NCBI GenBank assembly: GCA_905160935.1 | Contig: CAJHZI010000824.1 | Location: 118,501 to 182,500 of the forward strand | DNA: 64,000 nucleotides | From: Enchytraeus crypticus | Lineage: Eukaryota; Annelida; Clitellata; Enchytraeida; Enchytraeidae | Reading direction: 5' to 3' | Shown: piece after piece, positions 12,384 through 62,496 of the stretch | How positions within the stretch are numbered: the stretch's first letter is position 1 | Layout: each line of letters starts with the position of its first letter | Program-made: the position numbers and the translations under genes | Notes under the pieces: generated by a model | The model's database searches: none | Told to the model about the DNA's origin: nothing | What the model saw: the letters and a program-made list of their open reading frames with translations, nothing else

Positions 12384-12547
12384 CTAGAAAGCAAACAGGA
12401 TGAGGAAGGCCATCATGAGGCAGAACAGACCCATGGCCTCTGAGAGAGCGAAGCCGAGGATAGCATAGGAGAAGAGCTGCTGCTTCAACACTGGGTGACG
12501 AGCATAACCCATTACCAGGCTGCCAAACACTGAGCCTATACCAGCTC
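12384..12547 (-). CDS. ATP5MC: ATP5MC exon 4 (terminal coding exon)
   Basis: Encodes the end of the first helix, the loop with Lys43 and the second helix with Glu58, then TAG. The acceptor reads GTTGTTACAG before GAGCTGGTATAGG. The first 45 or so bases of this exon, with the acceptor, are copied twice more in the upstream intron. Confidence 0.96.
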
Positions 12548-15500
12548 CTGTAACAACAACAACAATTAGAGTGATACTATCAACTATGACAAGCATAGCC
12601 CATGACCAGGGTATCAAACACTGAACCAATACAAGCTCCTGTAACAACAAAAACAATTAGAGTGATACCATCAACCATGACTAACATAGCCCATCACCAG
12701 GCTGCCAAACACTGAACCAATGCCAGCTCCTGTAACAACAATAACAATTAGTGTTACCATCAACCATGACAAGCACACAACAATTCCTCCAAACACACTG
12801 TCAACCAGTACAGTTTAATTAATGACACATTCATTAACGTGCAGAGTCTGCAAGTGACGTCCCTGACATTACCTTTTGGCAAAGAACCGGACGTTAAATT
12901 CTTACTGATTGATTGATAATGAAGTACTTTTCCTAACATCAATGTTAAATGGTCTGCACAGAATCTCGTCTAAAATAGATGAATTAGATTCCTAGGAGTC
13001 AAAGGCATCTCTGAAGCAGCCTAGACATCTGTACAGCAGATCAGCGGCACTCAGTCAAATACTGCCGGTGTACTAGACTAGTACTACAAGATACTACACA
13101 ACTAAACATCAGCGGCTGGGTATCTCAGTAGAACGATCATCGACACTAACCCTGGAGACGGTTTCAATGTCGGCTCCTCTCATAGGAACTGATTAATTAT
13201 AAAACGAAAGCTGGTAAAGCTAATGCTAACGTCAGTTTTTTCATTCAAAAGTGATGCCAGTGACGGGCGAGCCCAATATTTGAACTCCGAAAATCTTTGT
13301 TGCTTATATTTTTTAAGTAATATAAATAATTTAGCATATATATATTGATTGATAGCCCCACCTGATCCGGCTACTCCGACAACTGCATATCATAATAGAT
13401 TTATCCATTGGCTCTAATCCAACAGACGGTTTCAATACCAGTTCCCCTGATACAAACTGATTAATTAATATAAATAATTTCCTATATATACTGATTGATA
13501 GACCCACCTGATCCGGCTACTCCGACGGTGGCAGCACCGGCCCCGATGTACTTGGCAGCCTGATCGATATCTCGCTGCACGGCGCTGGTCTGAAGCTGCC
13601 TGAGCTGAGCTCCCAGCATAGCCAGTGCAGAGGTGTGGGGTCTAACAGTGGCTGAGAGACCAGTGTAGTGTGATAGTGTGCTAGGCCTACACATCGTCTA
13701 CAATCAATCAATCAATCAATCAGCTATTCCATTGAACGGCAGTCGCTGCAAAAGCAAAATACTTTACATAAATGGTTCTATCAGGCACAGAATTAACAGT
13801 AAAATTTAGACTGAAAATTTTTCTCGTAAACTTTCTACAAATGCACTGTTGTGAACACATGGAAAAAGAAACTGCAAGAAAATTGCAGCACAACGGAAAC
13901 TTTTTTTGTTACAGTTTAGCATGTAAAGCGAGTTATACTAAAAATAAACTCAACACGTTTAACTGAACACAAAATTTGTATATCCTTAATATTTTAACAT
14001 TTTATGTGTTTTACAGTTGCCGCATCAGTTGCAAGGTCTGCTAGATTTCGAAGCCTGGATTCAAATGACTGCTGTTGCAATTAAATCTTAGACTCGTCTG
14101 TCTCTGAAGACTTTTTAGAGGTTAAACTAGCACTAAACTCAGCGTCAAAGATCCTAAGAGATCATCCTTGTGACGTACAACTGAATTTAAGTGCAAACAT
14201 AATAGTTGATGGTTAGCAATTTTTAAGCTGATATAACAAAATAAAATGCTTGTCTTATGAGACCAAAGGAGTTTTTTTAAATTTATTTTTTATTCCGTAT
14301 AGTTACACACATGGCATACCGCATGTGTTTACAATGTTTCCTTTCTTAAGTTTCTGTTTTTGTAGTTTTCGTTATTTCCTCCATTCCTTTCCATGGTTAT
14401 TAGTAATCATTGCCTGTTGTTGGCGCTCCAATAGCAGCCGGCGCGGATTTAAGAATAACCTCCAACACCCTGGGGATTGTTTACTTTCAAAGCTGTCTAC
14501 ACGCGGTCTTCCAAAGTGGTCGCCCACAATTTACTAACCGCGTGGCTTTACTTCGTTCAACTGACGCGCAGCTTAACTGAGTGCGCTAAATCCCCCCCCT
14601 ATAGGTACCAAGGTATTAGTTGGTACCTAATATCTATATATAGGTACTTAAAAATATTGCTTCAAATGATAAAGCTACATAATAGTACCAGATAATTATA
14701 AGCTGAGAATATAAGTACAACGAAATTACAATATTTTTGCAAAAAATCCTAAATAAATTCAAGTAATAGAATATCAACAGATATTTGCCTAATAATAATT
14801 AACAATATCCAGAGTTCACTAGAAACCTATCATATTCTCAGAATGCATAGCGTATGAATGACTAACCTGAGTATCGTTCTGCCGGGCTACGACAGAGAGA
14901 GATCTGGCAGCCTGACCGCTGGCCTACAGACAACAAATATACAACCACAGTTTGTACTCAGATAAGTATATGTACAACAACAACAACAATACGATTAGAG
15001 CGCTACTGTTGTCCATGACAACATCAAAAACTGCGGAACCAAATTAAAACCGATGAGCAAAGTGAGGGGTCCATAAACGGTGCGAGCCAAAATCCACGCA
15101 GTCAGTCCAAGGAAGGGTACTAGCGGAATGGAGGTTTATGTGTTGGTCTCAGGTCATAGATATTTAGTGGATAGAAAAAGTCCAAGAGAAAAGCTTTCAA
15201 CCGCCTAAAAGTACATACAGAATAATCATCACCTAGAAAGCATGATCTCGTAGAAAGGCAATTTGAGATATGGCAGTTCAAAAACCTTTAGATCCCTGTT
15301 CCTGGAGTGTATAACAAGTTTGACATCAATGCACAATCACATCAAGAGTCCTTAGTTTGGGGAGTGACCTCACCTGCCCACAACTTTTAACATTAGTCGA
15401 GAATGCTTAACTAAACCCTAAATAAATCCTATATAATAGTATTTTATTTCACATATTATATATAGATTAATTTTTACTAATCATACGTAATCTAGAGAGT

Positions 15501-15647
15501 GTTCAGTTTAGTAACATTTAGAAATCAGGCCTTTGCACAGTTGTCCTTGCGCCGGGTCATTCAGTATCACAAACCAAATTAAAAGGTTGCAAATAGACTC
15601 ACCGACGAGCGAGCGACTGGGGCGACGAATTTAGCGCAGGCGTACAT
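12384..15647 (-). CDS. ATP5MC: ATP synthase F(0) complex subunit C (c-ring), mitochondrial; four exons
   Basis: Exons 15603-15647, 14867-14923, 13508-13697 and 12384-12547 join (phases 0, 0, 1) into a 151-residue protein; all four donors have GT and all acceptors AG. It forms the proton-carrying c-ring of mitochondrial ATP synthase in the inner membrane. Residues 1-76 are a mitochondrial targeting presequence ([15 protein letters not shown]..., rich in Arg, Ser, Ala and lacking acidic residues near the start). The mature part begins at [12 protein letters not shown] and is exactly 75 residues, the family's usual length. It has two hydrophobic hairpin helices, the Gly-rich first helix ([16 protein letters not shown]), Lys at mature position 43 (ARHPVLKQQ, trimethylated in animals) and the essential proton-binding Glu at mature position 58 (FALSEAMG). 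It ends in LFAF. Identification rests on near-complete identity to the known family pattern. Confidence 0.96.
12548..12776 (-). repeat. Two tandem copies of the exon 4 acceptor edge, 91-bp period
   Basis: On the minus strand the junction GTTACAG before GAGCTGG recurs with exon-like first bases at 12638 and 12729, each exactly 91 bp further upstream than the real one at 12547. Each unit carries about 45 bp of exon and 45 bp of intron. The copy nearest the real exon has changes (AGIG to ACIG, FGSL to FDTL). The outer copy still encodes [14 protein letters not shown] in the same splice phase. Both keep the AG acceptor. Confidence 0.9.
12855..12917 (+). repeat. SINE family 3 tail (TTGA-tailed) in intron 3
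   Basis: GACGTCCCTGACATTACC, a short hairpin, GGACGTTAAATTCTTAC, then TTGATTGAT. Related copies are at 3984-4047 and 47635-47710. Confidence 0.7.
13208..13290 (-). repeat. tRNA-derived SINE family 1, truncated, in intron 3
   Basis: The tail AGCTGGTAAAGCTAATGC and the central GTGACGGGCGAGCCCA are present; the head is lost after the B-box region. Confidence 0.75.
13317..13381 (-). repeat. Copy of the exon 3 donor edge inside intron 3
   Basis: About 62 bp nearly identical to 13461-13526, spanning the donor. It contains exon-like CTGATCCGGCTACTCCGAC (plus strand) with an adjacent donor-like AC, 146 bp from the real one. Flanking intron blocks (AGACGGTTTCAAT...ACTGATTAATTA) are also duplicated (13150-13205 and 13420-13475), with a SINE inserted into one copy. 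Confidence 0.85.
13508..13697 (-). CDS. ATP5MC: ATP5MC exon 3
   Basis: Encodes the rest of the presequence and the start of the mature protein through VAGSG. The acceptor TGTAG follows a TTGA repeat tract and the donor is CAG/GTGGGT. The alternative acceptor eleven bases downstream would put an in-frame TAG after one codon, so the upstream one is chosen. Confidence 0.95.
14285..14600 (-). repeat. 5S rRNA-derived SINE in ATP5MC intron 2
   Basis: On the minus strand the head contains a damaged 5S core (GTTAGTAAATTGTGGGCGAC, then GACCGCGTG). It is followed by a body ending in TTAAATCCGCGCCGGCTGC and a tail ending CATGTGTGTAAC. Better 5S similarity is seen in the 27.3-kb and 34.3-kb copies. Confidence 0.75.
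14867..14923 (-). CDS. ATP5MC: ATP5MC exon 2 (presequence)
   Basis: Nineteen codons, [19 protein letters not shown], bounded by TTGTCTGTAG and CAG/GTTAGT, phase 0 on both sides. The Arg/Ser/Ala-rich composition without acidic residues before the last few codons suits a mitochondrial targeting sequence. Confidence 0.9.
14972..15200 (-). mobile_element. LINE B 3' end in ATP5MC intron 1
   Basis: Starts (plus strand) with an ACAACA repeat and TTAGAGCGCTACTG, then CCAAAATCCACGCAGTC and CCAAGGAAGGGTACTAG. It is the same 3' untranslated tail as the 20.5-kb LINE, 5'-truncated. Confidence 0.75.
15603..15647 (-). CDS. ATP5MC: ATP5MC exon 1 (start of coding)
   Basis: [15 protein letters not shown] followed by the donor GTGAGT; the start matches the MYACAKF opening common in animal c-subunits. 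The upstream 130 bp (to about 15780) is probably 5' untranslated region and promoter; no TATA box is evident. Confidence 0.93.
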
Positions 15648-15919
15648 TATAGCTGTTGAATTGATCGGTAGCGGAACAGGACTGACGAATAATTAGGCGA
15701 TTATTTGTAGCCGGACAGCGCGAGACCTAGCGACCTTCTACCAACTCAACCTTCTACAGACAGGAAGCGGATGTAGTAAAAGTAATCAGACAAAAAGTAA
15801 AAGAGAATTGTTGCAGAGTTTAAATAAAGACTGAAGAAAATAAGTGAACAAAATTAACAACAACAGAATAATTATAAAGCTATCTACTACTGCCAACATT
15901 GCCGTCAAGTCATGTCATA

Positions 15920-16128
15920 AGAGGGAATGATTTATTAATTACGAGAGGTAATCGAAGAAAGAATGCAAAGAAAAAAGGTTCTATAGAGGAAGACTGAGTT
16001 TTTGGATGCTGGATGATTTGTTAATTATAATTCGTATGCTGATATGAAGAGAAAGAGATTGATAGAAATCTATGGAAGAGTCAATATCCATGGACCTGCC
16101 AATAGACAGTGTACTAAGAGAGAAAATT
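15920..16128 (+). mobile_element. LINE A 3' fragment, decayed
   Basis: Keeps ATAAGAGGGAATGATTTATT (LRGNDLL), GAGGAAGACTGAG, GCTGATATGAAGAGAAAG, and the non-coding end ATGGACCTGCCAATAGACAG with GTACTAAGAGAG. Confidence 0.7.
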
Positions 16129-16540
16129 AAAATTGTAGTACGTGTAGGGAATCCCAGCTATATTAACATTTAAATCCAGATTAAGGATTAAATCCCAGAT
16201 TAAGGATTAAATACAGATTAAGGATTAAATACCAGATTAATAGTAATAGCGCTAATACGCGCAGCTCTGATAACAGACTTTTTAGGAACAATTCAAGTAC
16301 AATCAAACTGAATCAATTATTAGACTTTGGTTATTTTGTTTGTGTTTATAAATCTCAATTCCTTGCAGTAATATACAAGTATAGCATATAGGCCTATTGA
16401 TCTATTGTAGTTATTGAAAAATTCCTTTACACTTGATACCATTTATGGAGTTGGATAATCACCTCAGATGTCATATTCTTCAAATCTATAAACAAATAAG
16501 TTATACGTATAATTGCGCAGCCTCTAGTTAAGTGTCTCTA

Positions 16541-16800
16541 GTTAGAATGTCTCAGTAGCGCAATGGCTAACGGTGTAGATAACGTCATAAAGTTTAAAAT
16601 GACAGACCCTGAGGTGAATCGAACTCTCGTGGGTTCGATTCCCAGCCGCGCTGATCTGAGAGTACAATCTCGGACATTCACTGGATTGGCTACACGGAAA
16701 GTGGTCTAAATTGCCTAATGGATATAACATGTGGTATTAAAAGTGATAGATATCAACATTGTTGATAATTTCACTCTAATGTATGTTATTATTAAGTGAT
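16541..16800 (+). repeat. tRNA-derived SINE, family G
   Basis: Head with an A-box-like TAGCGCAATGGCTAACGG and a perfect B-box GGTTCGATTCCC. The body is GCTGATCTGAGAGTACAATC, and the tail contains a GATATCAACATTGTTGATAA hairpin. Other copies lie at 51722-51880 (plus) and 56695-56930 (minus). Confidence 0.8.
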
Positions 16801-17375
16801 AAACTTATTTATCTAGAGAGAGCTCTTTATGTCATAGAATGTAGATTTAAAGTAGAAGTTATGATTGAGTAGAAGTATGATTTAAAGCATTCAATCTCTT
16901 AGTGTGTAAAATAGGTAGACTTTGACTTTGGATCTACAATTACTTACCGAAACTCGAGAGAGAGAGAGACAGGCAAACAGATAGATAGATAGAGTGACAA
17001 AGAGATAAACAGACAGAAAGGCAGGGGCATCTAGACTTCGATATATAGGCGATGTAAGCGATGACGCAGCTTTGCGTCACGAAATTCTCAGAGGGTAGCC
17101 TTTACCTGAAAACTTTTTAGTGGGTACCGTACTATTGTACTGTAAGTACCCCCACTAAATTGCGTTTTACGTCATAGGCCAAGGGGGGGGGACGCCACTG
17201 CAGAATGGCGCCATGCTAGTTTTAACATGTAGTCATGTAACTAATAATTATATGAGTACATTGGCTTTCATACATGTATATACAACTGTATATGGGTACA
17301 TTGGATGACCATGCTAATTTTTTCGAGTACACGCATCTACATCTGGTGACCCTACTATTCTTGCACTTACAATAT

Positions 17376-17935
17376 TGTGCTAATCACTGATTACAATCCA
17401 TATTCCCTATTTAAATCCATATCACTGATAACAATCCTTATCACTGATTACAATCCTTATCACTGACTACAATCCATATCACTGATAACAATCCATATCA
17501 CTGATAACAATCCTTATCACTGATTACAATCCTTATCACTGACTACAATCCATATCACTGATAACAATCCATATCACTGATAACAATCCTTATCACTGAT
17601 TACAATCCTTATCACTGACTACAATCCATATCACTGATAACAATCCATATCACTGATAACAATCCTTATCACTGATTACAATCCTTATCACTGACTGCAA
17701 TCCATATCACTGATAACAATCCTTATCACTGATTACAATCCTTATCACTGACTACAATCCTTATCACTGATTACAATCCTTACCACTGATTCCAATCCTT
17801 ATCACTGATTACAATCAGTAGGCCTATCACTTATTACAATCCTTATCCCTAATAACAATCCATATCACTGATTACAATCCACATCACTGATATTAATCCT
17901 TATCACTGAAAACAATCCTTATCACTGAAAACAAT
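17376..17935. repeat. 19-bp minisatellite
   Basis: About 29 units of TTATCACTGATTACAATCC with regular alternation of GATTACA, GACTACA and GATAACA variants, which suggests a higher-order repeat of about four units. Confidence 0.9.
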
Positions 17936-18117
17936 ATGGGTACCACAGGCCGAGTGCTGTTAAATATTTTATTACTACGAGTTGATCGACTGGGGTGAGT
18001 TATCAGTTCTACATCACGACCACAGTTCTACAGGTGTCAGAGACTCGTTATTTATGCATCAGTTGATGCTGACACTTCTCGTTCTGCGTGATGCGCTTGA
18101 TTGGACCGTCTGATAGC

Positions 18118-18440
18118 TCACCTGTGGGCAGTAATCAACTGTGAATTACCTGTAGATTAACGATGGATTACTTTGACTTACCTGTGGATTACATTTAGAT
18201 TACCTGTACCTTACCTTTAACTTATCTGTGGATTACTTTTGACTTACCTGTGGATTACTTGTAGATTACCGTTGGATTAGCTTTGACTTACCTGTGGATT
18301 ACCTGCAGATTACCTGTAGATTACCTTTGACATACCTGTGAATTACCTGTAGATTGCCTGTAGCTTACGTTTAACTCGCCTGGGATTACCTGTAGATTAC
18401 CTATGAATTATTTTTGAATTACCCGTATACCTTGTATTAC
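18118..18440. repeat. Degenerate 11-bp minisatellite
   Basis: Units of TTACCTGTGGA / TTACCTTTGAC type, followed by a TCA trinucleotide run at about 18455-18491 and two GATTCTGTGATGTTG repeats to about 18600. Confidence 0.8.
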
Positions 18441-18460
18441 CTTTAATTATCATCATCGTT

Positions 18461-18494
<34 letters not shown>

Positions 18495-18734
18495 TGTGTT
18501 ACGTTAAGCGATCTGTTCTAATCTTGGAGCTCCTTTGATTCTGTGATGTTGCTGTTGCTTAGAGCTTTTGTGATTCTGTGATGTTGTTGTTGCTAAGAGA
18601 TCACGTGACTTTATGTTGTTGTTGTTGTTGTTAAGCTGAAGTCAGCGCTGAGCCGGTATATCACCATTACTGGACAGTATAAGAGATATCAAGCACATCT
18701 ATTACTGATCAGTAAGGCGGCATTCCAGCTCAGC

Positions 18735-19160
18735 TTATCACATCACGGCTTCATCACATCACTGCTTTTTCACATCACTGCTTTATCACTTCACGGCTTT
18801 ATCACTTCACTGCTTTATCACTTCACTGCTTTATCACATCACTGCTTTATCACTTCACTGCTTTATCACATCACTGCTTTATCACATCACTGCTTTATCA
18901 CATCACTGCTTAATCACATCACACCACTGCTTTCTCTCATCATATCACATAGCTGCCATCTCTCATCACATAACTGCTTTTCCTCATCACAACTGGTTTT
19001 TCTCATCGCATCATTGTTCTTCCTCATCACATCATATCACTTCTTTATCACATCACAGCTTTATCACATCACTGCTTTATCACATCACAGCTTTATCACA
19101 TTACTGTTTTTCCTCATCATATCACATCACTGCTCTATCATGCACATCACAGCACATCAT
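18735..19160. repeat. 16-bp minisatellite
   Basis: Units of CTTTATCACATCACTG with decayed copies toward the right edge. Confidence 0.85.
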
Positions 19161-19360
19161 AGCTTTTTCTCATGACGAAATTTATGAAGCACCTTAATAT
19201 TTGACTGTCTCAGTAGCTCAGTGTGCAGTGTAGCGCGTCAAGTAACGTTAACGAATGTTTCTTTGGTTTCTTGGTTCTATTCCTGATGAAGCCTGAGAGA
19301 AAATTCGTGAGAATTGTTTTCATTTTGTGTGGTATGTGCTGTGTTTCGATCTAATAAACA

Positions 19361-19398
<38 letters not shown>

Positions 19399-19576
19399 AC
19401 GTGAGCATTAGCAAGATCCATACCACTGACAATTTAAAGCAAACTTTCAAACAGCAATCAGTATCTCCTCAGCACATTTCGTTTGCAGATTGGTCTGGGT
19501 GAATTGATCTGTAGTGATATGTGCTGTTGGGGACGTCCCTGACATCATCCCTGGATGAGGAAACGGGCGTTAAACC

Positions 19577-19615
<39 letters not shown>
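19361..19615 (+). repeat. CT microsatellite and TTA-tailed SINE (family 2)
   Basis: A CT run (19361-19397) is followed at 19528-19615 by a family 2 element: GGACGTCCCTGACATCATCC, GGATGAGGAAACGGGCG, TTAAACCTTTATTATT. The tail can pair ACGTCCC with GGGCGT and, inside, TCATCC with GGATGA. Confidence 0.8.
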
Positions 19616-19616
<1 letters not shown>

Positions 19617-20453
19617 TTGTCAAGAGAGTGCTTTCTGTGCGAGAAACCATTATGAACGAAGACTTCGCTACAATGCTTTTTTATTAGACCATTTCTTCAC
19701 ATCTTAGCTTTCTCTGACAGTAATACCTCTTAATTTTCCGGAGCTATCTCGTATCTTAATTTCTTTTGATGCCGCAACACTTCAGAAATGTTCAATAACA
19801 CTAGCTCTTGTCGCGATGTAGTCTGTAGATTTTGATGATCATCTTCGCCACTGACCACATCTCAGTATTACGCGGTCTAAAACAATATCATTTGTACATG
19901 TATATTTAAATAATAATAATACAGTACGTTGTCTACAACAATTATACGTTGAATATTTATATTATTACACCATGACACACAATAAGCGCACAAATATTTT
20001 AAACAAAATTTTCAACAACCAGTAAGAACAGAGATATTAGCCTGTATACCTAATAAAACAATAGGCATATATGCTTTGTGATATGCTAGCGTTCTTTAAC
20101 AGTTATTAATGAGTGTTAGTGAATCATAATGATCGTTAATGACTATTGATTACTGTGAACGGTTTCTAATGCTGTTGTTGCTTTTGTTATGAACTGTTTC
20201 TTTTAATGATTAAACTAGTTTTATTTTTATTTATAAATTGCAACTGTAGAATTTGACTAATAAATTAGCCTATTTGAAGTGACAAAGAAAAATAAAAAGG
20301 CATATTAAGATTAGCTCTTGTCTCGTTAAGTAATAACAAAAAATAAATAATAAACAAAACAAGTAACACTTAACAAAAATGCAAATACAAATACTTTATA
20401 GTCTGTCAGTTTCCTCATAATTGTTAGAAGTTGAGAGTTATTCTAGCCAGTAG
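19616..20453. other. AT-rich intergenic stretch
   Basis: No exon or repeat family recognised. Confidence 0.5.
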
Positions 20454-20556
20454 CTATTCTTTAGATGTACAATAGCGATATAGCATGGGTTTTTTATCGA
20501 GGTTTTTAAATTGTTGTATTTTTGAATTAGTTAGAAATATAGGCTCTAAATGCTTG

Positions 20557-20599
<43 letters not shown>

Positions 20600-21235
20600 C
20601 AATTAGAGTGCTACAGTCATCAATGACAACATCGAGCACTATTGAGACAAAATCAAGCCAGCGAGCAAAAAAAGAAGGTCCAAAAGCGGTGCAAATTCCA
20701 AAATCCAGAAATTCAGTCCAAAGTAAAGGGAGTTCAAGAAAAGGTGGTTTAGGCGCAGGTCGCTGCTCATGAACACTGGATGGAAAAGAGAGATGGAAAA
20801 GATAGGTCCTCAACTGCCTATGGAACTGCTCATAGGAAAGCAAAGGCTGATGCGATTCAAATGAAGATTTCCGAAGATTGGATGGAAGAGAATTCCAGAT
20901 CTGAGGTGCAGCATGCTGGAAAGAACGATTAGATAGCTTAGAGCGCGAAGGTAAGCTAGGTCTCACAAGAGTAATTAACTTAGAAGACCGAGTAATAGCA
21001 GGCTGCATCACTTTAATCAAGTGAGACATACAAGTTTGTCCAGGGATGGTGATGGACTTATAGGCTAACGAAGCTGTTTTGTAAATGATACGCTCTTTAA
21101 TCTTTAGCCAGTGCAAAGACTTCAAAATAGGCGCAACATGTGAGCACTTGGAACTACAAAAAATAAGAGCTGGAAGCCTCCTTTGGTATAGTTTAAAATG
21201 GTCACCTCTTAGATTCAAGCAGTGTCTGCACTGTC
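20454..21235 (-). mobile_element. LINE B: reverse transcriptase C-terminal part and 3' tail
   Basis: A 254-codon frame on the minus strand. Its first 150 or so residues match the C-terminal part of CR1/L2/jockey-type reverse transcriptases: HVAPILKSLHWLKIKERI, then YKTASLAYKS, FQHAAPQIWNSLPSNLR and FHRQLRTYLF. After this it runs through a 3' region ending in TAGCACTCTAATTGTTG and a long ATT/GTT repeat tail. The element is 5'-truncated near 21235 and lacks the catalytic YxDD part, so it cannot move alone. Six other 3' ends of this type are in the window (14.97, 28.5, 35.3, 45.1, 48.4 and 58.0 kb). Confidence 0.85.
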
Positions 21236-22108: not shown

Positions 22109-22240
22109 AAAGCTAAAAAGCTAATGTTAACGTCAGTTTCCTCACTCGAAAGCGAAGTCAGAAACGGACGAGCCCAGGATTTGAACCCCGCACCTACTGA
22201 TCCGCGGTCGAATATCTTACAGACATCGCCACAGGCTCCA
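22109..22240 (-). repeat. tRNA-derived SINE, family 1
   Basis: Near full length: tail, GAGCCCAGGATTTGAACCCC (antisense B-box) and GATCCGCGGTCGAATATC head. Confidence 0.85.
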
Positions 22241-22334
22241 GCTGACTAGCTCTATATAACTAAATATACAGCTAAATACCTGCAGAGTACGGCTGTTAAA
22301 TAAATAGCTCTCAAAGCGATTGTCGGGCGCATTT

Positions 22335-23402: not shown

Positions 23403-23540
23403 GCTGGTAAAACTGGTAAAGCTAAGGTGAACGTCAGTTTCCTCACTCGAAAGCGATGCCGGTGACGGGTAAGCCCAGGATTTGAACCCCTCATATACTG
23501 ATCCGCGGTCGAGCATCTTACATTGCCACTGGCTCCAGGC
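23403..23540 (-). repeat. tRNA-derived SINE, family 1
   Basis: Complete tail and B-box; the head has a small deletion (CATCTTACATTGCCACTGGC). Confidence 0.85.
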
Positions 23541-25052: not shown

Positions 25053-25363
25053 TTAATAATAATAAAGGTTTAACGTCCGTTTCCTCATACAAGGACGATG
25101 TCAACATTACAAGGATGATGTCAAGGACTTTGAAATTGAAATCTTTTTAGTGATATATAGGCCTACATGGCCAAAAGAGTTGGTAACGCTAATGTTAACG
25201 TCATTTTCCTCACTCGAAAGCGATGTCAGAGATGGGCGAGCCCAGGATTTGAACCCCTCACGTACTGATCCAAGAGAAGACAAGCAAAAACTTCTCCAAA
25301 CAAGAGAAGTTAAGCAAAGAACTGAAAGAAGAGCATCAGGACATGATCCTGCTAAATATATGC

Positions 25364-27596: not shown

Positions 27597-27730
27597 AATG
27601 GCGATGTCGGTAAGATACTCGACCGCGGATTAGTATATGTGGGGTTCAAATGTTGAGCTCGCCCGTCACTGACATCGCTTTCGAGTGAGGAAACTGACGT
27701 TAAAATTAGCTATTTTTTAGCTTTACTCAC
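27597..27730 (+). repeat. tRNA-derived SINE, family 1
   Basis: Sense copy: TGGCGATGTCGGTAAGATAC head, GGGGTTCAAAT B-box, full tail. Confidence 0.85.
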
Positions 27731-29159: not shown

Positions 29160-29387
29160 CTAGTGAGCGGCGCCACCTGGTGACGAGGTGGGCGGGGCAG
29201 GAGGCGGGGCTAGTTTTATCTTGTACCGAGCGAGGAGAGACCGGTAAGCTTCAGAGCGAAGGAAACGCGGGTAAGAGTCGCGCTCCATCAGCGCCTGAAT
29301 GCGCCGCTGGGCTGGTTCAAATAGCGTGGCGTCGGGCGTGCTTAGTCGTGCTGCCGTCTCTTCTCTCGTCTTAGAGTCGAGGTTTAT
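29160..29387 (-). CDS. RGS exon 4 (terminal)
   Basis: Seventy-five codons from INLDS to the TAG. The acceptor GTTTTGCCGTGCAG is strong. R4 RGS genes typically begin their last exon at this same VNLDS position. Confidence 0.93.
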
Positions 29388-32067
29388 CTGCACGGCAAAA
29401 CAGAATATCTGAGATATAATCATCATCATCATCCTCCCTTGAATCCCAGTTTAACCAGGGTCGGGATACAAATAGACCGTCTCAAATTCGAGAAAATCTG
29501 AGATATGAAATCTGCCGTTTCCTCATCCAGGCAAATATGTGATTTGTAAATATGCAAAATATCAAGGCAAAATATGCAGATATGTAAATATGAGAAAGAG
29601 AAAACATGTTTATCAGAACAATTTGTTATTATCACAATCATAGAATACTCATCCTGGCATTCATAATATTAAAGTTTAATTTCAAAATTGCAGTTAATTA
29701 CTCTAGTGCATATCCCTTTGTCTAATGCTTACCCAAGTGGCAGGTCCAAGGTATATATTCCTACTAAGAATCTAAAAAAGTATAAAACAAATATGATAAA
29801 GAAAAGAAAAAATGTGAGTTAAAATTATACATGTCCTGTTCTTTAAATATTCGTTATAGGGGCAGACAGCAACTGTATACCTGAACCTGCAACTTGACGG
29901 AACACAAGAGACAGAACGTTTCTTAATTGTAAATGTCCGTTTCTGTATCATACGAAACACTCTTATCCTTCATAGGTCGTCACAGATACTTCAGCAGATG
30001 GTAGGACTACCAAGAAGATAGGACAAATGTTAGACAGACAAGACAGACAGATAAATAAACAGAGATAGAGAGACAGATGGATGGATATACAGCCAGATTG
30101 ACTCACAGACTTGAACCTGCCACTTGACCAAACACAAGAGAGAGATAGACAGACAGATGATAGCTATACAGACAGACGCTATCTGTTTCCCAAATTACGC
30201 CGTATTAACAGATACCATAGCAATCAGCCATGTACTAGAAACAGCGGTAAGGAAAGCATTGACACGACAATAGTAAACTATAGACATCCTTCAATACAAA
30301 TCTCTCTAGCAGCCTATGTTGACATAAAACTATAGAGTTCAATTCAAAAAACCTCTCTAGCAGCCTGTGTTGATATTAAACTATAGAGTTCAATACAAAC
30401 TTTTCTAGCAGCCTGTGTTGACATTAAACTATAGAGTTCAATAGAAACCTTGCTAGCAGCCTGTGTTGACATTAAACTATAGACATCTTTCAATACAAAC
30501 TTCTCTAGCAGCCTGTATTAACCTTAGTTAACCATAGACAGAGTTCAAAACAAATCTTTCTAGCAGCCTGTATTAACCTTAGTTAACTATAGACATCGTT
30601 CAATTCAAACCTCTCTAGCAGCCTGTATGGTAACAAAATCTGAGAAAATCTTCTGCGAGAGAGGGGCAAGTTTTTCCGGTGCTGTAGAGGCTGTTGTCTT
30701 GTAATCCTCACACGCTATATAGAATTCTAAGTTCTCCTCGCTAAATTCACTCCGCAGAAATTCTCGAAACATGTCCAATCCATCTAATCAATCAATCAAT
30801 AGTCTAATCAATCAATACATAGAGTGACAACGTCTAATAAACTGAGTGAAATCACTAATCAATGCATCTGAGGTCAAGGACGTTCCTGACATCAATCCAT
30901 AATGAGGAAATTGATGTTAAACCTTTACTACTATTATTACTATTATTATATATTATTATCATTAAACGAATTGAAAGACTGAAACAGGAGATTGGCTGGT
31001 GGTGTGGTGTAGGACACACAGGATTTGAGACAGTCTATTCGTATCCCGACCCTGGTTAAACTAGGATTCAAGGGAAGAGAATCATGATTATTTTTACTAT
31101 TATTATCATTACATCATTGTGCTACAATTATATATTATATTATATATATTATATATTATATTATATATATTATATATTATATTATATATATTATATATTA
31201 TATTATATATATTATATATTATATTATATATGAAAGCAGATCTTCTATGGACCTCTAATATCTTAATTAAAATAAATATGTCATAAATATCATCAGAAAC
31301 GTTCACGGTTTATTTACATTATCCACAAGTAATTCATGTATGTTCATCCAGGTTATAAGAATCTCATGGGTAACAAATGGATAACATTGTGGGAATTCTA
31401 ATATGCTAAAAATTAATTGTTGAAATGGTCAACCTGAACAGTCTATGATGACATCGAGCATAAAGAGCCGAACCACCTTTGACAAATCCTTAGATGAGAC
31501 TCGCTGGCTCAACTTTTATATCCATATATTTGACCATTTCAGAACTTAAGGTTATGATAAACTTCTAATCTTTCTATTTATTTACCACATTTATGCAATT
31601 ACTGGCTTCAGTAGGTGACGATGTTGGTTAGATATTCAACTGCGGATCAGTATGTACAGGGTGCAAATCCTGGGCTTTCCCGTCACTGACATCACTTTCG
31701 AGCAAGGAAACTGACATTAACATTAGCCTTACCAGCTTTACTTTACACTTAGAGACATTTGAACCTCAAGGATTGTAAATGACTATTGACAAATGTTTAC
31801 AATCAATTAATTACATTATATGGTAGTCAAATCACTGGTTAGATTTACTTTTATCGTTGATCAGATTGTCCAAACTCTTACTCCAACTTCTTACATCGTC
31901 TGCTGTGGGTCTAGTGGGTTTTCCATCTTTGGGCATTCCCGGAGCACCAAAATCCGCATGCTTGCGTAACATCGCAAATCTGTCCTTCATGTCTTGAGCT
32001 CTGTTGTATCAATCAATCAATCAGTCAATTAATTAATTTATCTGTAATATCAATCACTCAATAAATT

Positions 32068-50610: not shown

Positions 50611-50614
<4 letters not shown>

Positions 50615-52895: not shown

Positions 52896-53054
52896 ATCAA
52901 GCCTTACTCAATGGCCTTGCACTGTTTTAGATTTAGCTTCTCTTATGATGGCTGCTTACACAACAGTCTTCTGATTATGTAACAATCTCTTTCTATTAAT
53001 CTACCAAATGGCAGGTCCAAATATTATTCCAAATCACAATCTTTCTAACTCTCA

Positions 53055-53365: not shown

Positions 53366-53937
53366 GGCTGATCTAGCTTATTGTTAAGTATATTGGCCAC
53401 AGAAGCTTTTAGTAACATAACGTTCAGAACTCGGAAACGCTAGCGAAAACGACCACAGTTTCCTAGCCTAAAGTGTCAATGTGTCACAACTACTGTGTGA
53501 TGCACATAATATACTACCTTTATTCCATGGATCTACAATTACGACTCCAAGGAATATTTGTTTATTTTATTTATCTACATGTATATTGACTAATTGATGC
53601 GAATGGTTGATTCTTTGAACTAATCGCGTAACAGTAGATTTGAATCATACTCTTTCGTTTTTTAAAATCACGCACATCACGTTTATAATTCTAATAACAA
53701 TCGCGATGCTTAATAGTTAAATTCTAGCGGTGTCGTATCTTCGGCACTTAAGAGCGAAGACTTTGAGTGTAAACGAGCCATTACTACCAGCTTGAATCTT
53801 TCCAATCTGTCACCCGAACTATTGCGATCCTCTCTGCTAATTGGAAGCTGTTAAAATTTCGAGGAAATATATTGTAAAGAGGCAATAAAGAGGCGGCCAT
53901 TAGAGGGCGGCAGTTTAGGGTGGCAGTTCTACAATGT
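53366..53937. other. Stretch without a gene
   Basis: No exon or repeat recognised. Confidence 0.45.
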
Positions 53938-54293
53938 GACGCCTGGTCGTCTGTTCGCCTGGTCGTCTTGTCGCCTGGTCGAATGGTCGCCTGGTCGTCT
54001 GGTCGTCTGGTCGTCTGGTCGATTGGTCGTTTGGTGGATTGGTCGACTGGTCGTCTGGTCGATTGGTCGTCTGGTCGATTGGTCGTCTGGTCGTCTGGTC
54101 GATTGGTCGTCTGGTCGATTGGTCGTCTGGTCGATTGGTCGTCTGGTCGATTGGTCGTCTGGTCGTCTGGTCGATTGGTCGTCTGGTCGATTGGTGGATT
54201 GGTCGTTTGGTGGATTGGTCGTCTGGTCGTCTGGTCGATTGGTCGTCTGGTAGATTGGTCGTCTGGTGGATTGGTCGTCTCGTCGTCTGGTCC
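53938..54293. repeat. 8-bp minisatellite open in all three plus frames
   Basis: About 44 units of GGTCGTCT or GGTCGATT, with GGTGGATT and GGTCGTTT variants. An 8-bp unit without stops encodes the same RLVVWSSG-type octapeptide in every plus frame, giving overlapping frames of 162, 105 and 105 codons. These are artefacts. Confidence 0.95.
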
Positions 54294-55289
54294 CGATATT
54301 ATTTCATCGGCTGTTATGTTAATTTCAATTATAGGCGAATATTTGTCATTCTCTGATCAAGTGCATTTTTATAGAATACACTGCATGGCTTGTTTGCAAT
54401 ACTGTTAGGATAACATTATATTACATACTACATGGATAGTAGATACCTCTGGACGGGATGTGAAGATATTTCGGAATTATTTGCTAGTTTATGTCCTCTT
54501 TGTGCTATTGATCGCTGAAACATAGTCTAATATTTGAGCACATCTGGTGCTAAATTTGTTTTAGAAAAATTGTTTGCGTTTTAAACCAATTAAATAATGT
54601 TTTGTAAACAAAAAGTATATTTATTCAATAGAAAAGTTATAACTTCTCATCCGGCAATTATCCTTAAAGATGACTGACTTCAGTCATTTACTAAATAAAT
54701 ACTCCAAGGTCCATTATCCTATAACTGCAATATTATTACATCATAACCAATCCTACTAGGATCAAAATCTACTCTATACAAATACGGAAAAACCTAATAA
54801 TTAGCAAAAGTGGTTCTTTTAGCTTCTATGAAGATTCGTCAAAATAGGAGAATATACTCCACTATAAGCCACACCTGATGAGGCTCATCAAAGAAGAAAG
54901 AGCTTTAATTCATAGGATTCAACAAATCTGAAAACTACATAAGGCGAATAGAAAATAATTCTGACCATGTAATGCATGAGGCGCTTTAGTCAGCTCCCTA
55001 ATTTTGACTTGTTTGGTCTATTCTTAGTTTTCCAGGGCTCGTATCAGCGTAGAGAGAGAGAACTGTGTTTATTGAAGTACACATACAAGTATACATACAA
55101 TCACAAGGTCATCAAAGAGGGTATATATATCCTATCTATTTGACATCCAGCAAACACGCAAAAACAGCCAAACATACATGTGCATTTAAAATTAGCAAGA
55201 GTAGACCCCTATCTCATTTAGGCAAGAATTTATATTTCAAATGCACAAAATATCAGCATTAAAATTGTTTTTAAAATTAAAATCCAATA
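54294..55289. other. Stretch without a gene
   Basis: AT-rich; no supported exon. Confidence 0.45.
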
Positions 55290-55375
55290 AGAAGTTTAAC
55301 GTCAGTTTCCTGCTCGACGACTCATCAGTGACAGGGTGAGGTCTGGATTTGAACTCAGCACACCGAGCTTAAAAT
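55290..55375 (-). repeat. SINE family 1, diverged
   Basis: AAGTTTAACGTCAGTTTCC, CAGTGACAGGGTGAGG and GGATTTGAACTC. Confidence 0.65.
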
Positions 55376-55511
55376 TTAATTTAAAATCAAAAATGTTCAA
55401 AACTCTCATCCGTACAATAGTACAAATAACAAGCTGACGAAGTCTGGCATCGAATTCACAGCCTCTTTCATACTAGTCAACGTCGTTCCATTGGTTTAGG
55501 GATCAACGCAC

Positions 55512-55758
55512 AATAAAACACTGCTAAATAAAGCACTTCTAAATAAAGCACTTCTAAATAAAGCACTTCTAAATAAAGCATTTCTATATAAAGCACTTCT
55601 AAATAAAACGCTTTTAAATAAAGCACTTCTAAATAAAGCATTTCTATGTAAACCACTTCAAAATAAAGCACTTCAAAATAAAGCACTTCTAAATAAAGCA
55701 CTTCTAAATAAAGCACTTCTAAATAAAGCACTTCTAAGTAAAGCATTTCTAAAAAAGC
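55512..55758. repeat. 15-bp minisatellite of AATAAAGCACTTCTA
   Basis: About 16 units. The plus strand presents AATAAA in most units; the minus strand gives an LYLEV pentapeptide frame, an artefact. Confidence 0.95.
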
Positions 55759-56164
55759 ATATCTAATATATTCCAATTACCAATTTCCAATATGACCGAC
55801 CCTAGGAACTCCCTCCAGTATATTGTGCGTCCGTGGGCAGAGCGTAGGCTCCAGAAACAAAGCGAGTAATTTGTAAATGAAGGCAGTAATTTTCCAGTGT
55901 GAGGGAACCTGTATGAGCGACAAATGACTCTACTGTTTTGTACGTGGGGTTGAACTGAGATAACGTCACAAAACAGGATTAGATTTGGAGACAAGCTGAT
56001 TGATATTAACTACGTCTGATTGTTAATTATTCTCTGGAACAAATGAAAAAAATTATATTTTTATTTATCTTCTGCTTTAGTTAATTTTAGTTAAGCTCTG
56101 TTTTTCTTTGTCTGTTGCTTTTTATTATACTTTCACTTGACGTTTATATCGTCAGAATTTCTGC

Positions 56165-56260
56165 AGTTTGGTAAAGTTAACGTCAGTTTTCTCACTCGTA
56201 AGCGATGTCAGTGACCGGAGAGAGCCCAGGATTTGAACCCAGGAACCTACTGAATCGACA
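56165..56260 (-). repeat. SINE family 1
   Basis: Antisense tail (GTTAACGTCAGTTTTCTCAC) and B-box (AGGATTTGAACCC). Confidence 0.75.
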
Positions 56261-56694
56261 GTTCCTTTATGTATTTGAGTAAGTTTAATTTATTGCCAAT
56301 ATTGCCTGGTAGTAGGGCCTATACATGTACAAGTAAATTTTCTAATATTTAAATATAACTATTAATTATATTATGTTAATTACAATTGAAAGGGAGGGAC
56401 TATTTTAAATAGCATCATGGATGCGGTTTTGAATACATACATTTATATTAAAGTTGTCAACTCACAACATTATTTAATGAGCTCAGATTATTGTTGAACT
56501 GCTCCCTTAGGTTGCTAATATTTTATAACAAGGTTTATCTTAACTAAAGGCTGAGTCCACTTACATCATAGTTATTTTACTGAGGCCAACTCAGGAATGA
56601 AATTCTTATTTCGGTAGATCCTAGTACTGGTTAGAACTTCAGTGTTTTCCCTAAAGGCAGTTTTGAGAAAGTGTATGTATTACGTAATATTAAA

Positions 56695-56930
56695 GTAAAC
56701 ACTCATTATAGTGAAATGATCAACTATGTTGATATCTATCACTGTTTAAAAATGCCACATGTCTAAACCGTTAGGCAATTTATTCCATTTTCCGTATAAC
56801 CAGTCAAGTGAATGTCCGAGATATTACTCTCAGATCAGCGCGGCTGGGATTCGAACCGGCGAGAGTTCAATTCATCTCAGGATCTGTCATTTAAAACTTC
56901 ATGACGTTACCCCTACGCTATTCAGACATT
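56695..56930 (-). repeat. SINE family G, near full length
   Basis: Antisense GATCAACTATGTTGATATC hairpin, the CAGATCAGCGCGGCTGGGAT junction with B-box, and the head to CTATTCAGAC. Confidence 0.8.
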
Positions 56931-57107
56931 CATGCATACAATATTACGTCATTATGTCTTCATTCACCTTGAAAGCCGTTACTAAGAATATTTCCGGAAA
57001 GAGATTTGGTTTTCTAAAAGTATAAAATGTAAATGCATATTGCAATATTTTGTTCTTTGATCAGGTTGTGTCGCAGACATGGACTTGCGAATGACAAGTT
57101 GCTGTAA

Positions 57108-57235
57108 ATTATTTAATTAATAATTACTTAATTAAATAATTAATAATTACTTAATTAAATAATTAATAATTACTTAATTAAATTATTAATAATTACTTAA
57201 TTAAATTATTAAATAGTTATTTAATTATAACTTTT
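57108..57235. repeat. 23-bp AT-only tandem repeat
   Basis: Four units of TAATAATTACTTAATTAAAT. Confidence 0.85.
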
Positions 57236-57671
57236 AAAGTAACTTCTGTAACTTTCGTCGAATGGCTTTAATTTAATATTATATCATCTGTAGTCAGACG
57301 GAATTAAATGTGAGATCCGAGTCGAGATTTGAATCCACGCCGTATATTCTATCGGATATTGCAGTCTTCGCCAATTCTTCTTTAAGGCTGATCGATAAGC
57401 TGAGAAGAAATAAGCAACCACTAAATAAGCAGTACTCACACAGTTTCAAACTTCTAGATTCTTCAAAAACACTCAATTATAAATGTCATCTGATATTTGG
57501 CAACTCTGCGATGTTATACGACCATATAAACTCCAGATCTCGAATGTTCCGTAGATTAGCAGGTTGTAGGTTTATATTCCTACCTACTTTGCTGCTTATT
57601 CACTCATAAAACACAGGAAGTACACCCTTATTCTTCTCCGCAGGGTTTTCAATATTACACCAGCAGATCAT

Positions 57672-57860
57672 CTTCTCTCTTCTAGTGCACTTCCAACTGG
57701 CAGGTCCATGGTATATAACGCCTTCACTAATCTCTATCTTCCGTTCTCCTCTTCATGCCCACAAACGAGTGGATCTTCAACTTTCCTTTTTTGATATACA
57801 ATTATTCTTGGGGGACTCTGCTTATGACTTGGTGGGTCCCCTATGCCTTCCTCAGATCAT
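57672..57860 (-). mobile_element. LINE A 3' end with family E scrap
   Basis: CACTTCCAACTGGCAGGTCC and CTTCATGCCCACAAACGAGT, then GGTGGGTCCCC of family E. Confidence 0.7.
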
Positions 57861-58027
57861 CTTCGTGAAATATTAATTACATGTATGCTAAACGATGACT
57901 TGGGAACAAGAGTAAGGAGGCAGCATTACTGAGCACACTAAGTGTCGTAAGTGTTTTTTCTTTTCTACTTTCTCTTCGACATAGCACTAAGTAATTTTTC
58001 TCCTCGACTTTTCCTATCCACCAAATG

Positions 58028-58222
58028 TTCATGACCTGAGACCAACACGTAAACCTCCATTCCGCTAGTACCCTTCCTTGGACTGACCACCCGGATTTTG
58101 GCTTGCACCGTTTTAGACCCTCCACTCTGCTCATCGGTTATAATTTGGTTCCAAAGTGTTCGATGTTGTCATGGACAACAGTAGCACTCTAATCGTATTG
58201 TTGTTGTTGTTGTTGTTGTCCA
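58028..58222 (+). mobile_element. LINE B 3' end
   Basis: ACGTAAACCTCCATTCCGC through CAGTAGCACTCTAATCG and TTGTTG tail; same end as 48.4 kb. Confidence 0.8.
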
Positions 58223-58509
58223 GTCAACAAGATATCCGAGGAGTCTTTATAATCGACAAGTGTTGCCTATAGGGAGGCACTACTGAACTGAATAGCCTGC
58301 AATCATGTTTAATGGACTCCGCTGAGAGACGGGTTTAGTGAGGTCCCATTTAACTACCGGTTAATCCGTTTCCGTGACACTGGAATTCCCATGAAGCGAA
58401 TTTCTAATCTACTTGTGAAAGTCCACAGGTACAGTGGTTGTGTGGAAAAGAGCGTATAAATAATAGAACATGACGTTCCGTCAGAGTGTAGAACAGTTCC
58501 CACATACAT

Positions 58510-58860
58510 GTAGATTGTACATTCTTCCAAGCAACTTATATATATACCGTTGTACTCAGTGTTTGTTTGTATTCTTCAAAGCAACTGATACTGTTATATT
58601 CTGTGCTTGTATTCTTCCAAGCAACTGATACTGTTGTATTCTGTGCTTGTATTCTTCAAAGCAACTGATACTACTGTTGTATTGTGAGCTTTTATTTTTC
58701 AAAGAAAATAATATTGATGCATTGCGTGCTTATATTATATTATTCAGAGTAACTAATACGGTTGTGTTCTCTGCTTGTATCTTTCAAAGCAACTGATACT
58801 GTTGTATTCTGTGCTTGTATTCTTCCAAGCAGCTGATGTAATTTGTGCTTGTATTCGCTT
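58510..58860. repeat. Minisatellite of about 40 bp
   Basis: Seven units containing TTGTATTCTTCCAAGCAACT and GATACTGTTGTATTCTG. Confidence 0.8.
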
Positions 58861-59019
58861 CTTATCTAGCAAAATGTATATAAAGCGATAAGGAAATGTA
58901 TGTTAGGTAAATTGCTAAAGATTGATATGACAATATTCTAATTTCGATAAATCAATGTTTATATCGAAGACTCATTCAATTATTCAGTATTAAGAAGGAC
59001 AAGCAAATAAGGGGATTGA

Positions 59020-59296
59020 CTGATGATAAGGTGTGGGACAGGGAGGACTGGAGAAAGTCTATTTTATCCCAATACTGGTTCAACTGAGATCTAAGGGAAG
59101 ATGATGATGATGATGTTTATTTCAAAGACTCTCATTTCTGTTTAATTGATCTGCCAAACATTTGTTGGACATTAATAATGTTTAAGACACTCGACCGCGG
59201 ATCAGTTGATGCGGGTTCAAATCCTGTGCTCGCCCGTCATTGACATCGCTTTCAAGTGAGGAAACTGACGTTAACCTTAGCTTTACCAGCTTTTTT
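59020..59296 (+). repeat. Family D copy and SINE family 1
   Basis: Family D 3' end with ATGATG run (59020-59115), then a sense SINE 1 (59183-59296) with GCGGGTTCAAATCC and full tail. Confidence 0.75.
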
Positions 59297-61835
59297 AAGA
59301 ATGTTTCAAGAATGACGTAAAGCCTGGTTTTATCTACATTATTAAAAATTAATATTATAATAATGTAGAACCAAATGTACTATTGGGATAAACTAATAAA
59401 CTAGACTGGTGCTGATTAACAAAGAGAAGAAGTTTAAGAGACGGCTTGAACGAACAGTATATAGTTTGCTGTACCTGTGTTTTCCTGCTCCTGCTAGAAA
59501 ATTATAGTGCCTACAGTAATTTCGGAATTAAGAATTTTCCAGATTTCGCTAACGTTGTGAAGAGATCAATACTCTGCTCACTTGTTGACTCTTAGCGAGT
59601 ATTCTGATGTTTTTGACAAACTCTCTGGTTCTCAAGTGACTCAATTTTCAGTGGAATTTCCAACGCTTCAAACAAACGATTTAAAACCCTCTTTCTAATC
59701 CTCATAGTTATGTTGCTTAATTTGTAATGAGAATTTGTAAACACTCAAGCGATTTCCGATTACCGGATTACCATATCGTTTAAGCCGAGAGCAGATTGAA
59801 TAGTAACAAATTAATGAAAAACTCAAAATGTTCCATTCTATATTAGAAATTTTAATTTAAGACAGAGGATTGACTATTCCTGAAAATATTAAGTTAGGAA
59901 TGTTGGTACATGCTGGACAGACTTCATTTATCTAGTCTTGATTTAGTATTCCTTGGCTTTCGAAATAATACAAAATATCAGATACGACCCCATTTGACTA
60001 TATATCTTGTGTTGAAGCCTCATTACATCACGTGCAGTAAACGATGAATCAAATATGCAGAGGTGGTACGGTGGTACTTTATATGATGGAACATTACGGT
60101 GGTACGTTACGGTGGTACAGAGGTGGTACGTTATATAGCACGGATTGTTGCTGTCTTTTATAAGTCTCTAAGATTGTTTATGAATATTTCAAATGATCTA
60201 ATAACACGTGTAGAAGTGCTTCTGTTCTAAATCGACGCTAGATCAACGTGCTTTCTACAGTCATATAAAATATCAAGTCTCCGTTTGATTTTTAAAATAC
60301 GAAGGTATCATATCTTTCCTAATCTTCTACATAGCCTGCTTTCATCATCCTCCGGCACACTAGACGATATTAAAAAATTGTCATCTTTCTTCAACAGGTA
60401 TCTTTTTGAAGTTTGTCTAATCAAATTCATGAAGAATTCTGATGAAAATAAATTGTTGTTCCAATTGTTCTAGTTCAACCGAATAAAGGAACTAAACTCG
60501 ATATTATTAGATTCGAATTCTATTCTGCTTTTTTTAAATTTCGCAACCTCTCATGCATAACATGAGAGGCTATCTCTACCTCTTCATATTTTCTTGTCCC
60601 TCACATCTCCCACTGGTGAGGAGCAGGGCGTTAAAAACTTATTCTACTGTATCGCTTTATATGTGTATCACTGCACTCTTCATTGTTCTCTAAATAAATT
60701 ATCAAGAACCTCTCTACATACCTGCAGGCTGCTTGTAAATCTCATTTCTTCAGTACTCAAGATGCTCAGTAGGATTTCTTTTTCTTTTACTCAGATCAAT
60801 AATTTAGCTTTTGCTCTTTGAATGTTTTAAATTTTTACCAAGTTTTTATTTTTCTAATCGCTCTGCGGCTATTCCCTGTCCATGCCTCAGTGCGCGGCTG
60901 ATCGTTATTCTTTCCGCTTTAACTGCGCCATTACCTCACACTCAGCATTCAAAGGTCCCGCATAAATAGTCATATACGCCGCGAACCGGCCGGCTTTTTA
61001 TCGCCTTTAAACAACCCGAATTATCGCCCGACTTAGTGGTGCCCAGACCAGCGGAGAGCGTAGAATAGGAAACCGGGTCAGAGAGTAATTGAGGCTCTTG
61101 CAAATAGCTATCAGAGTTTAGAGGGGAGGTATAGAGCTTCCAGAGGCGATGGGTGAAATTAATAACTCAATCAAATTTTAACAGTTATTAAATAAACAGT
61201 TATTGAAATATATCCATGTAACTTAAATAATTATTTTATATTTTATATTATATTATTAATCAGTCTGCAAAACAAATTAAATACATGGCTTATAAATCTT
61301 ATTTAGATATGAAAATTTACTAAAATTAAAATTACGATAAAAGATCCAGGCAAATTTCAACTACTCATATCTAGCAATCTCCTGTACGTTATTATTCAAT
61401 GGATCTAAAAATTTTGGGGGCTTGAATGCTATCCCAGAATCCCCTATATGTGGTTCACTGCTCATCTCTGACAAATATTTTTGACGTCAGAACGCTTGAA
61501 CGGTACAAATGCCCTGTTTGTTTCTGAGCCATCAGCTCAATGGCTGCGGGACGTTACGATGATTCGTGGAAAAAAGTTTAATTGATTTTTTAGTGTTCTC
61601 TGAGGCATTAGATCTTATCTCTTCAGCTATTCCATGAGAGTTGTTATATGCATGACCGATGTTATGTGTGTATGTATGTATGTATATATGTATGTATGTA
61701 TATATATATACATGTATATATATATATTTATATATATTTATATTTATATAATATATTCTTTTGTATTCATACGTATTGATTTATTAGGTTATTAGAAGAG
61801 TTGTTTTATTTTGAGAGGCGCCATATTTGATTAAT
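59297..61835. other. Long stretch without a recognised gene
   Basis: Contains a GGTGGTACG repeat (60055-60135), a family 3-like tail (60595-60640), a GC-richer unique segment at about 60880-61160, and TA-rich runs (61672-61745). If the signal-peptide exon belongs to the receptor gene, all of this is intron 1. Confidence 0.45.
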
Positions 61836-62189
61836 TGATTGATTGATTGATTGATAGATTTATTTATTCATTGATTGATTCATTGATTGACTCAGTATCG
61901 GTATCGTAGACTCGTCATCAGAGAAGCGACTGATAATGATGTTGATGGATAACTACAGACAGAGCGGGTTGGACAGATTGATTGATTTATTGATTTATTG
62001 ATTTATTAATTGATTCAGTATCGTAGACTCATCTTCAGAGAAGCGGTTGATAACGATGCTATTGAATAACTACAGACAGAGCGGGGTGGATTGATTGATT
62101 GTTTGTTTGATTAATTGATTGATAACGATGTTGATGGATAACTACAGATAGAGCGGGGTGGACTGATTGATTGATTGAATGACTGATTA

Positions 62190-62250
<61 letters not shown>

Positions 62251-62303
62251 CTGATTGATTGATTGATTGACTGATTGTTTGATTGATTGATTGATTGACA
62301 CAG
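61836..62303 (+). repeat. Tandem copies of the receptor exon 2 acceptor edge with TTGA repeats
   Basis: The sequence CAGTATCGTAGACTC followed by GAGAAGCGGTTGATAAC and GATAACTACAGACAGAGCGG, which is the acceptor and first 65-70 bases of the real exon, also occurs at 61891-61970 and 62016-62091; a partial copy without the acceptor is at 62117-62162. TTGA-type repeats fill the gaps. The first copy has a 6-bp TATCGG insertion and the second a 3-bp deletion/substitution difference. Confidence 0.9.
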
Positions 62304-62496
62304 TATCGTAGACTCATCTTCAGAGAAGCGGTTGATAACGATGTTGATGGATAACTACAGACAGAGCGGAGTGGACGGACGGCCGGTCCTCAACACTTCG
62401 CGCACTCTGCCGGTCAATATCGGCTTCTCTCTCCTACAGATCGTTCACTTCGATCAACAACGGCAAATCATATCAGTGGTCGGCTGGATTAGTCTG
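62304..62496 (+). CDS. Nicotinic acetylcholine receptor-like Cys-loop subunit, exon 2 (partial gene)
   Basis: Encodes IVDSSSEKRLITMLMDNY, then RPVLNTSRTLPVNIGFSLLQ and IVHFDQQRQIISVVGWISL, ending at a GTTAGT donor. The order matches the start of the extracellular domain of nicotinic receptors (first helix, RPV, FSLSLLQI, DEKNQ, VWL), and the exon ends where vertebrate alpha-7 exon 2 ends. It would form the first beta strands of the ligand-binding domain. Differences: DQQRQ replaces DEKNQ, and ISVVGW replaces the usual TTNVW; N51-T-S is a glycosylation sequon. The acceptor CACAG/TATC fits the candidate signal-peptide exon in phase; TCGTAG/ACTC would need a phase-1 partner. Downstream exons were not found before the window ends. 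Confidence 0.82.

Follow-up and report, generated by a model that had tools for sequence, protein, structure and literature searches.

Diverged tandem copies of exon edges in introns of the annelid Enchytraeus crypticus match the 'mirages' of amphioxus

In a window of 64,000 nucleotides from the annelid Enchytraeus crypticus (positions 118,501 to 182,500 of contig CAJHZI010000824.1, GenBank assembly GCA_905160935.1), diverged tandem copies of their exon edge accompany 4 of 13 placed splice junctions, two donors and two acceptors. These junctions lie in the genes for the ATP synthase c subunit, an RGS protein and a Cys-loop receptor. Self-alignment finds all four where the preliminary description of this DNA had placed copied exon edges; its count of four affected boundaries holds, while its denominator of seven is replaced by 13. 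We read the arrays, with a probability of about 0.85, as 'mirages', that is, as ordinary intronic tandem duplication tolerated since one intact junction suffices. The term was reportedly coined in the paper on amphioxus Adh3. The preliminary description knew of no name for the pattern, but the mirages of amphioxus fit it; thus, the pattern itself is already described in amphioxus, and its occurrence in an annelid, a very distant animal, is new.

The gene for the ATP synthase c subunit carries copied edges at both the donor and the acceptor flanking one intron, intron 3 (coordinates of all features are collected in Table 1). On the donor side, self-alignment places the copy of the exon 3 edge 148 bp deeper into the intron, and the two parts of the donor copy are separated by a dispersed repeat resembling a short interspersed element (SINE; ~13200 to 13312), which is present in just one copy of the unit. 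On the acceptor side, each 91-bp unit consists of the intron end with its AG and the start of exon 4, giving a real exon start at 12547 and decoys at 12638 and 12729, both of which hit a stop after 19 codons. The first copy of exon 4 shares 15 codons with the real exon, with synonymous differences only, and 3 of their 5 differences fall on the side of the real exon (alignment, read by eye). It was rejected as a working alternative exon, as it runs into TGA.

The RGS gene was identified by PF00615 on its two downstream exons (E 4.5e-13 and 2.4e-12), while the Pfam profile search gave no match on the upstream exon. Among the six extra units of its donor array, GT is kept in four and lost in two. 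In the Cys-loop receptor gene, the acceptor array comprises four units by self-alignment: two full extra copies, one partial copy and the real one. The real exon starts at 62324 and the decoys at 61922 and 62039, and the third copy (~62117-62166) has lost its AG. The acceptor had previously been put at a later ACTACAG; however, 62323/62324 (..tcttcag|AGAAGCGG, reading KRLITMLMDNYRQSGVDGRPVLN) is the more likely site, because the frame there reads like the start of a ligand-binding domain. The receptor copies include this site.

The same kind of duplication is found in other genes of the genome. Profile searches covered the 524,188,772-bp assembly, and two samples were drawn from them. The dynein sample consists of 12 dynein heavy chain genes (L069-L080), in which adjacent exon hits were paired and 46 introns resolved of 49 pairs; 64 of 82 profile rows were used, with 16 others in genes not taken and 2 left out within genes taken. 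Under a strict definition of a copy (at least 75% identity over 40 bp), copies span 11 of 92 inferred junctions (8/46 acceptors, 3/46 donors), together with 6797 of 31959 intron positions (21.3%) and 64 of 3166 exon-interior positions (2.0%). Looser settings give 10/46 acceptors and 3/46 donors, against 25.7% of intron and 2.0% of exon-interior positions. Visual checking found 10 of the 11 strict junctions clear and one, a donor on contig C360, doubtful; of the 13 loosely flagged junctions three were weak, two acceptors below 66% identity and one donor at 72-76%, the latter being kept in the strict count of 11. At one dynein donor (L078 on C452, position 4069 of the sense strand), seven copies follow downstream at multiples of 52 bp, from 104 to 416, and 7/7 keep GT.

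The first sample (L001-L068) drew on hits to the profiles for the ATP-synthase-c family, myosin and chaperonin. Here 94 of 154 rows were taken, 71 of the 94 being without stops, and 68 exon hits were counted for copies and 63 for the sequence tracts considered below; the rows dropped were those on contigs C373, C259 and C400 (long hits in which an intron was not evident) and hits with internal stops. Copies lie over 17 of 136 exon ends (10/68 5' ends, 7/68 3' ends), and they cover 10.7% of the positions in noncoding sequence and 2.0% of those in the coding interior, compared with 0.6% of Markov-shuffled sequence. Exon ends overall are thus close to the noncoding rate. In the profiles of both samples, copies fade ~10-60 bases into the exon. 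Inferring exon edges with a generic splice matrix yielded mostly low scores and was replaced by adjacent-exon pairing in the dynein genes; that attempt gave copies at 19 of 173 edges, compared with 12.7% of control positions, and at 3 of 46 edges scoring 3 or more.

Boundary-spanning duplication is therefore widespread in this genome, and the suggestion of a recurrent process is borne out by the independent dynein genes. The preliminary description had gone further, proposing breakage or template switching at splice junctions. If junctions were hotspots of this kind, for instance through R-loops or repair, exon edges would be copied preferentially, and the presence of three affected genes within 50 kb, as well as an intron copied at both of its sides, agrees with that. 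However, junctions in the dynein sample lie in copies less often than intron positions do (two-sided P = 0.03), with donors below the intron rate (P = 0.011) and acceptors not different from it (P = 0.59), and the 3' exon ends of the first sample do not exceed the noncoding rate. Microhomology at breakpoints was above chance in one of three tested (P 0.04, 0.32 and 0.71; the receptor array lay outside the test), and was rejected as a general signature of mechanism. Junctions are no hotspot in the dynein sample, a sample rather than the whole genome; within that scope it shows the lack of enrichment which the preliminary description had named as refuting its proposal. A preference for splice junctions is very improbable as the cause of the arrays.

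Some observations nevertheless weigh against placement by ordinary duplication alone. Local duplications hold ~11% of all window positions, so that ~1.5 of 13 junctions would be expected to carry copies and the four observed are just marginally above expectation. With the window as background, the binomial P is 0.041-0.059 over six settings; it is 0.19-0.26 when the gene spans alone serve as background. Circular shifts give P = 0.062 and independent shifts per gene P = 0.073, while the finding that all three genes are affected has P = 0.020-0.031 in the shift tests. Enrichment judged from the window alone thus varies with the background chosen and was set aside as marginal: each copy is real, and clustering at junctions within this window alone is marginal. 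In addition, the 5' exon ends of the first sample lie slightly above the noncoding rate, which a junction hotspot would also produce, and dynein acceptors exceed donors by 8 to 3, unlike pure random placement, although not significantly so (Fisher P = 0.20). Exon edges in both samples were inferred from profile hits and splice consensus rather than from transcripts.

Under the mirage reading, the arrays would be tandem duplications of minisatellite type in which the repeat unit takes in an exon/intron boundary by chance. The introns of E. crypticus are rich in short tandem duplications, some of which run over the exon edge. A duplication reaching from just inside the exon into the intron would leave an intact junction beside the exon and put a spare edge, splice site included, further into the intron. 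As one junction remains intact beside the exon, the mRNA need not change, and the event would be nearly neutral; duplications extending deeper into coding sequence would disrupt the frame and be removed. At acceptors, arrays cross the boundary almost as freely as they fill introns, halting where coding sequence would suffer. Once formed, an array may expand, contract and decay as any minisatellite does. The arrays probably arose by replication slippage or unequal exchange, and the copies are presumably near-neutral, with the real site normally used.

The copies could instead be functional, in which case the arrays would provide decoy or alternative splice sites for tuning splicing or setting off decay of the transcript. 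Reading from each of the four decoy acceptors tested soon runs into a stop, as would be expected of poison sites, and so does reading past the real donors in two of two cases; heavy use of the decoys would therefore be harmful. AG or GT is kept in 9 of 12 extra window copies (counted by eye from alignments), which would fit a function, but this is about what 10-20% divergence alone would leave and matches plain sequence identity. Moreover, sites are lost in one of three receptor copies and two of six RGS copies, and both copy number and unit length vary between junctions. Function of this kind is very improbable.

An assembly artefact, in which allelic or mis-joined reads mimic tandem copies, must also be considered, given that the published E. 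crypticus assembly is described as built from both short and long reads (PMC8460440) and that, in the available text of PMC3087553, the draft amphioxus genome is said to have mis-assembled a globin mirage. In the window, however, the copies diverge by ~9-30% from one another in self-alignment, which argues against such an artefact, as do the SINE-like element, present in just a single copy of the donor unit in the ATP synthase gene, and the recurrence of the pattern on many contigs. We regard this explanation as extremely improbable.

As described in the accessible portions of PMC3087553 and PMC3902484, mirages are tandem repeats of intron/exon boundaries in the amphioxus genes for Adh3, globin (BflGb6 and BflGb9), troponin C and PGBD5; they show length polymorphism and somatic instability, and are reported there to be without effect on splicing. 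As far as those portions go, their structure and unit size match the arrays of E. crypticus. Units spanning the exon/intron boundary are found here in the window and at the 11 dynein junctions, at 5' as well as 3' boundaries (donors and acceptors, two of each, in the window; three donors, one of them doubtful, and eight acceptors in the dynein genes), and some copies, 9 of 12 in the window, retain AG or GT. Amphioxus is a cephalochordate and E. crypticus an annelid (Clitellata), but taxonomic range lies outside the structural definition. Searches of an open-licence library found no report using the term outside lancelets. Recent human paralogs likewise contain internal tandem repeats over exon-intron boundaries, which can shift splicing; these differ, in the text available, in lying in segmental duplications, in varying in unit number between paralogs and in being associated with novel introns (PMC2812944). 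The Rogers model of intron gain by tandem duplication with AG/GT, as cited in the available text of PMC3087553, shares the duplication of splice sites by a short tandem duplication. However, it yields a new intron, whereas the spare sites here appear to lie inside existing introns, with no sign of a newly gained one; conserved exons flank the introns concerned in the window, and the decoys that were tested soon run into stops. Among clitellate annelids, earthworm metallothionein genes have minisatellites in intron 1 and duplications of exon 4, one copy being inverted, which the available part of that report does not describe as boundary-spanning units (PMC12783039).

Tracts of (TTGA)n, defined as 11 bp or more, accompany 4 of 7 window acceptors, with that of the receptor belonging to its array. 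They show a sense-strand bias, with 92 sense against 2 antisense in 2486 mid-intron windows of the dynein genes and 352 against 45 in 10757 noncoding windows of the first sample. They are commonest 0-40 nt upstream of exons (dynein, 6/46 sense and 1/46 antisense; first sample, 12/63 and 0/63) and few lie downstream of a donor (sense 1/46 and 0/63, antisense 0/46 and 2/63, respectively). Relative to the intron background, the excess has P = 0.002 (7/46 within 60 nt, dynein) and 2e-5 (12/63 within 80 nt, first sample). The pentamer TTGAT fits the branch-point consensus yUnAy, and the tracts may perhaps be repeated candidate branch-point-like units. A broader proposal, which we hold to be unlikely though not negligible, is that boundary-spanning arrays are a genome-wide and ongoing annelid feature, independent of that in amphioxus, which supplies spare splice sites and is tolerated because acceptor choice would depend not on which AG is nearest but on another feature, perhaps these sense-strand tracts.

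Table 1. Positions of the genes, arrays and repeats in the 64,000-nucleotide window
Feature	Position	Strand	Details
ATP synthase c-subunit gene	12384..15647	(-)	Reading frame and splice sites; Pfam PF00137 on last exon, E 1.4e-10
ATP synthase c coding exons	15603-15647, 14867-14923, 13508-13697 (acceptor less sure), 12384-12547	(-)	
Original donor edge of ATP synthase c exon 3	13461..13526	(-)	19 exonic bases within copied part
Intron 3 copy of exon 3 donor edge	13313..13380	(-)	91% identical, GT retained
Second part of donor duplicated unit	13116..13199	(-)	72% vs 13383-13467
ATP synthase c exon 4 acceptor array	12496..12775	(-)	Three 91-bp tandem units; Tandem Repeats Finder (TRF) 3.1 copies, 86% matches; alignment
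RGS gene	29160..32000	(-)	Exons 31849-32000, 30611-30783 and one starting 29387
Donor array of RGS exon ending at 30611	30270..30638	(-)	7 units of 48-55 bp, counting the real exon end as the first
Cys-loop receptor acceptor array	61824..62379	(+)	Unit: (GATT)n, intron end and ~56 exonic bases
Cys-loop receptor ligand-binding-domain exon	62324..62496	(+)	Donor 62496/62497; PF02931 E 1.7e-4, 21.5 bits, below Pfam cut-off of 26
(TTGA/GATT)n tracts	13701-13722, 30786-30800, 32008-32023, 62190-62298		
SINE core matches	166-187, 12125-12146, 13264-13285, 22165-22186, 23466-23487, 25233-25254		13264-13285 lies in the repeat splitting the ATP synthase c donor copy
SINE core matches	27644-27665, 31661-31682, 56217-56238, 59215-59236, 62929-62950		

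Other features of the window and genome were recorded. The dispersed SINE-like family, perhaps tRNA-derived, is represented in the 64 kb by 11 matches, allowing up to 3 mismatches, to a single 22-base core, as against none in 100 shuffles. ARAGORN made one tRNA-Tyr call (22166-22255), which starts in a core match; the viral-contig scan for the core found nothing, and the Rfam scan gave 0 matches at the gathering threshold. An open frame of 1005 codons (4414-7431, minus strand) has no Pfam match at E <= 1, and a 24-bp minisatellite (7774-8561; ~32 copies, 95% matches) has a long open frame through the repeat on each strand. GC content is 35.8% in the genome segments of the first sample; the available text of PMC8460440 gives 35.41% for a genome of 525,192,231 bp, with a mitochondrial genome of 15,205 bp whose gene order resembles that of Lumbricus terrestris. 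The mitochondrial contig C802 uses the invertebrate code and carries nad3-nad2-cox1-cox2-atp8-cox3 on one strand (4.3 kb seen; COX1 by profile, the others from translations). At L082 and four other places, nuclear contigs contain fragments that resemble mitochondrial cox1 but are interrupted by stops; these are probably nuclear copies.

The occurrence of mirages at ~1 in 8 junctions of an annelid gene sample suggests a side product of frequent tandem duplication within introns and not a peculiarity of lancelets. Genomes of this kind offer natural material on how the spliceosome chooses among near-identical sites, and on how often spare sites turn into new introns or exons.

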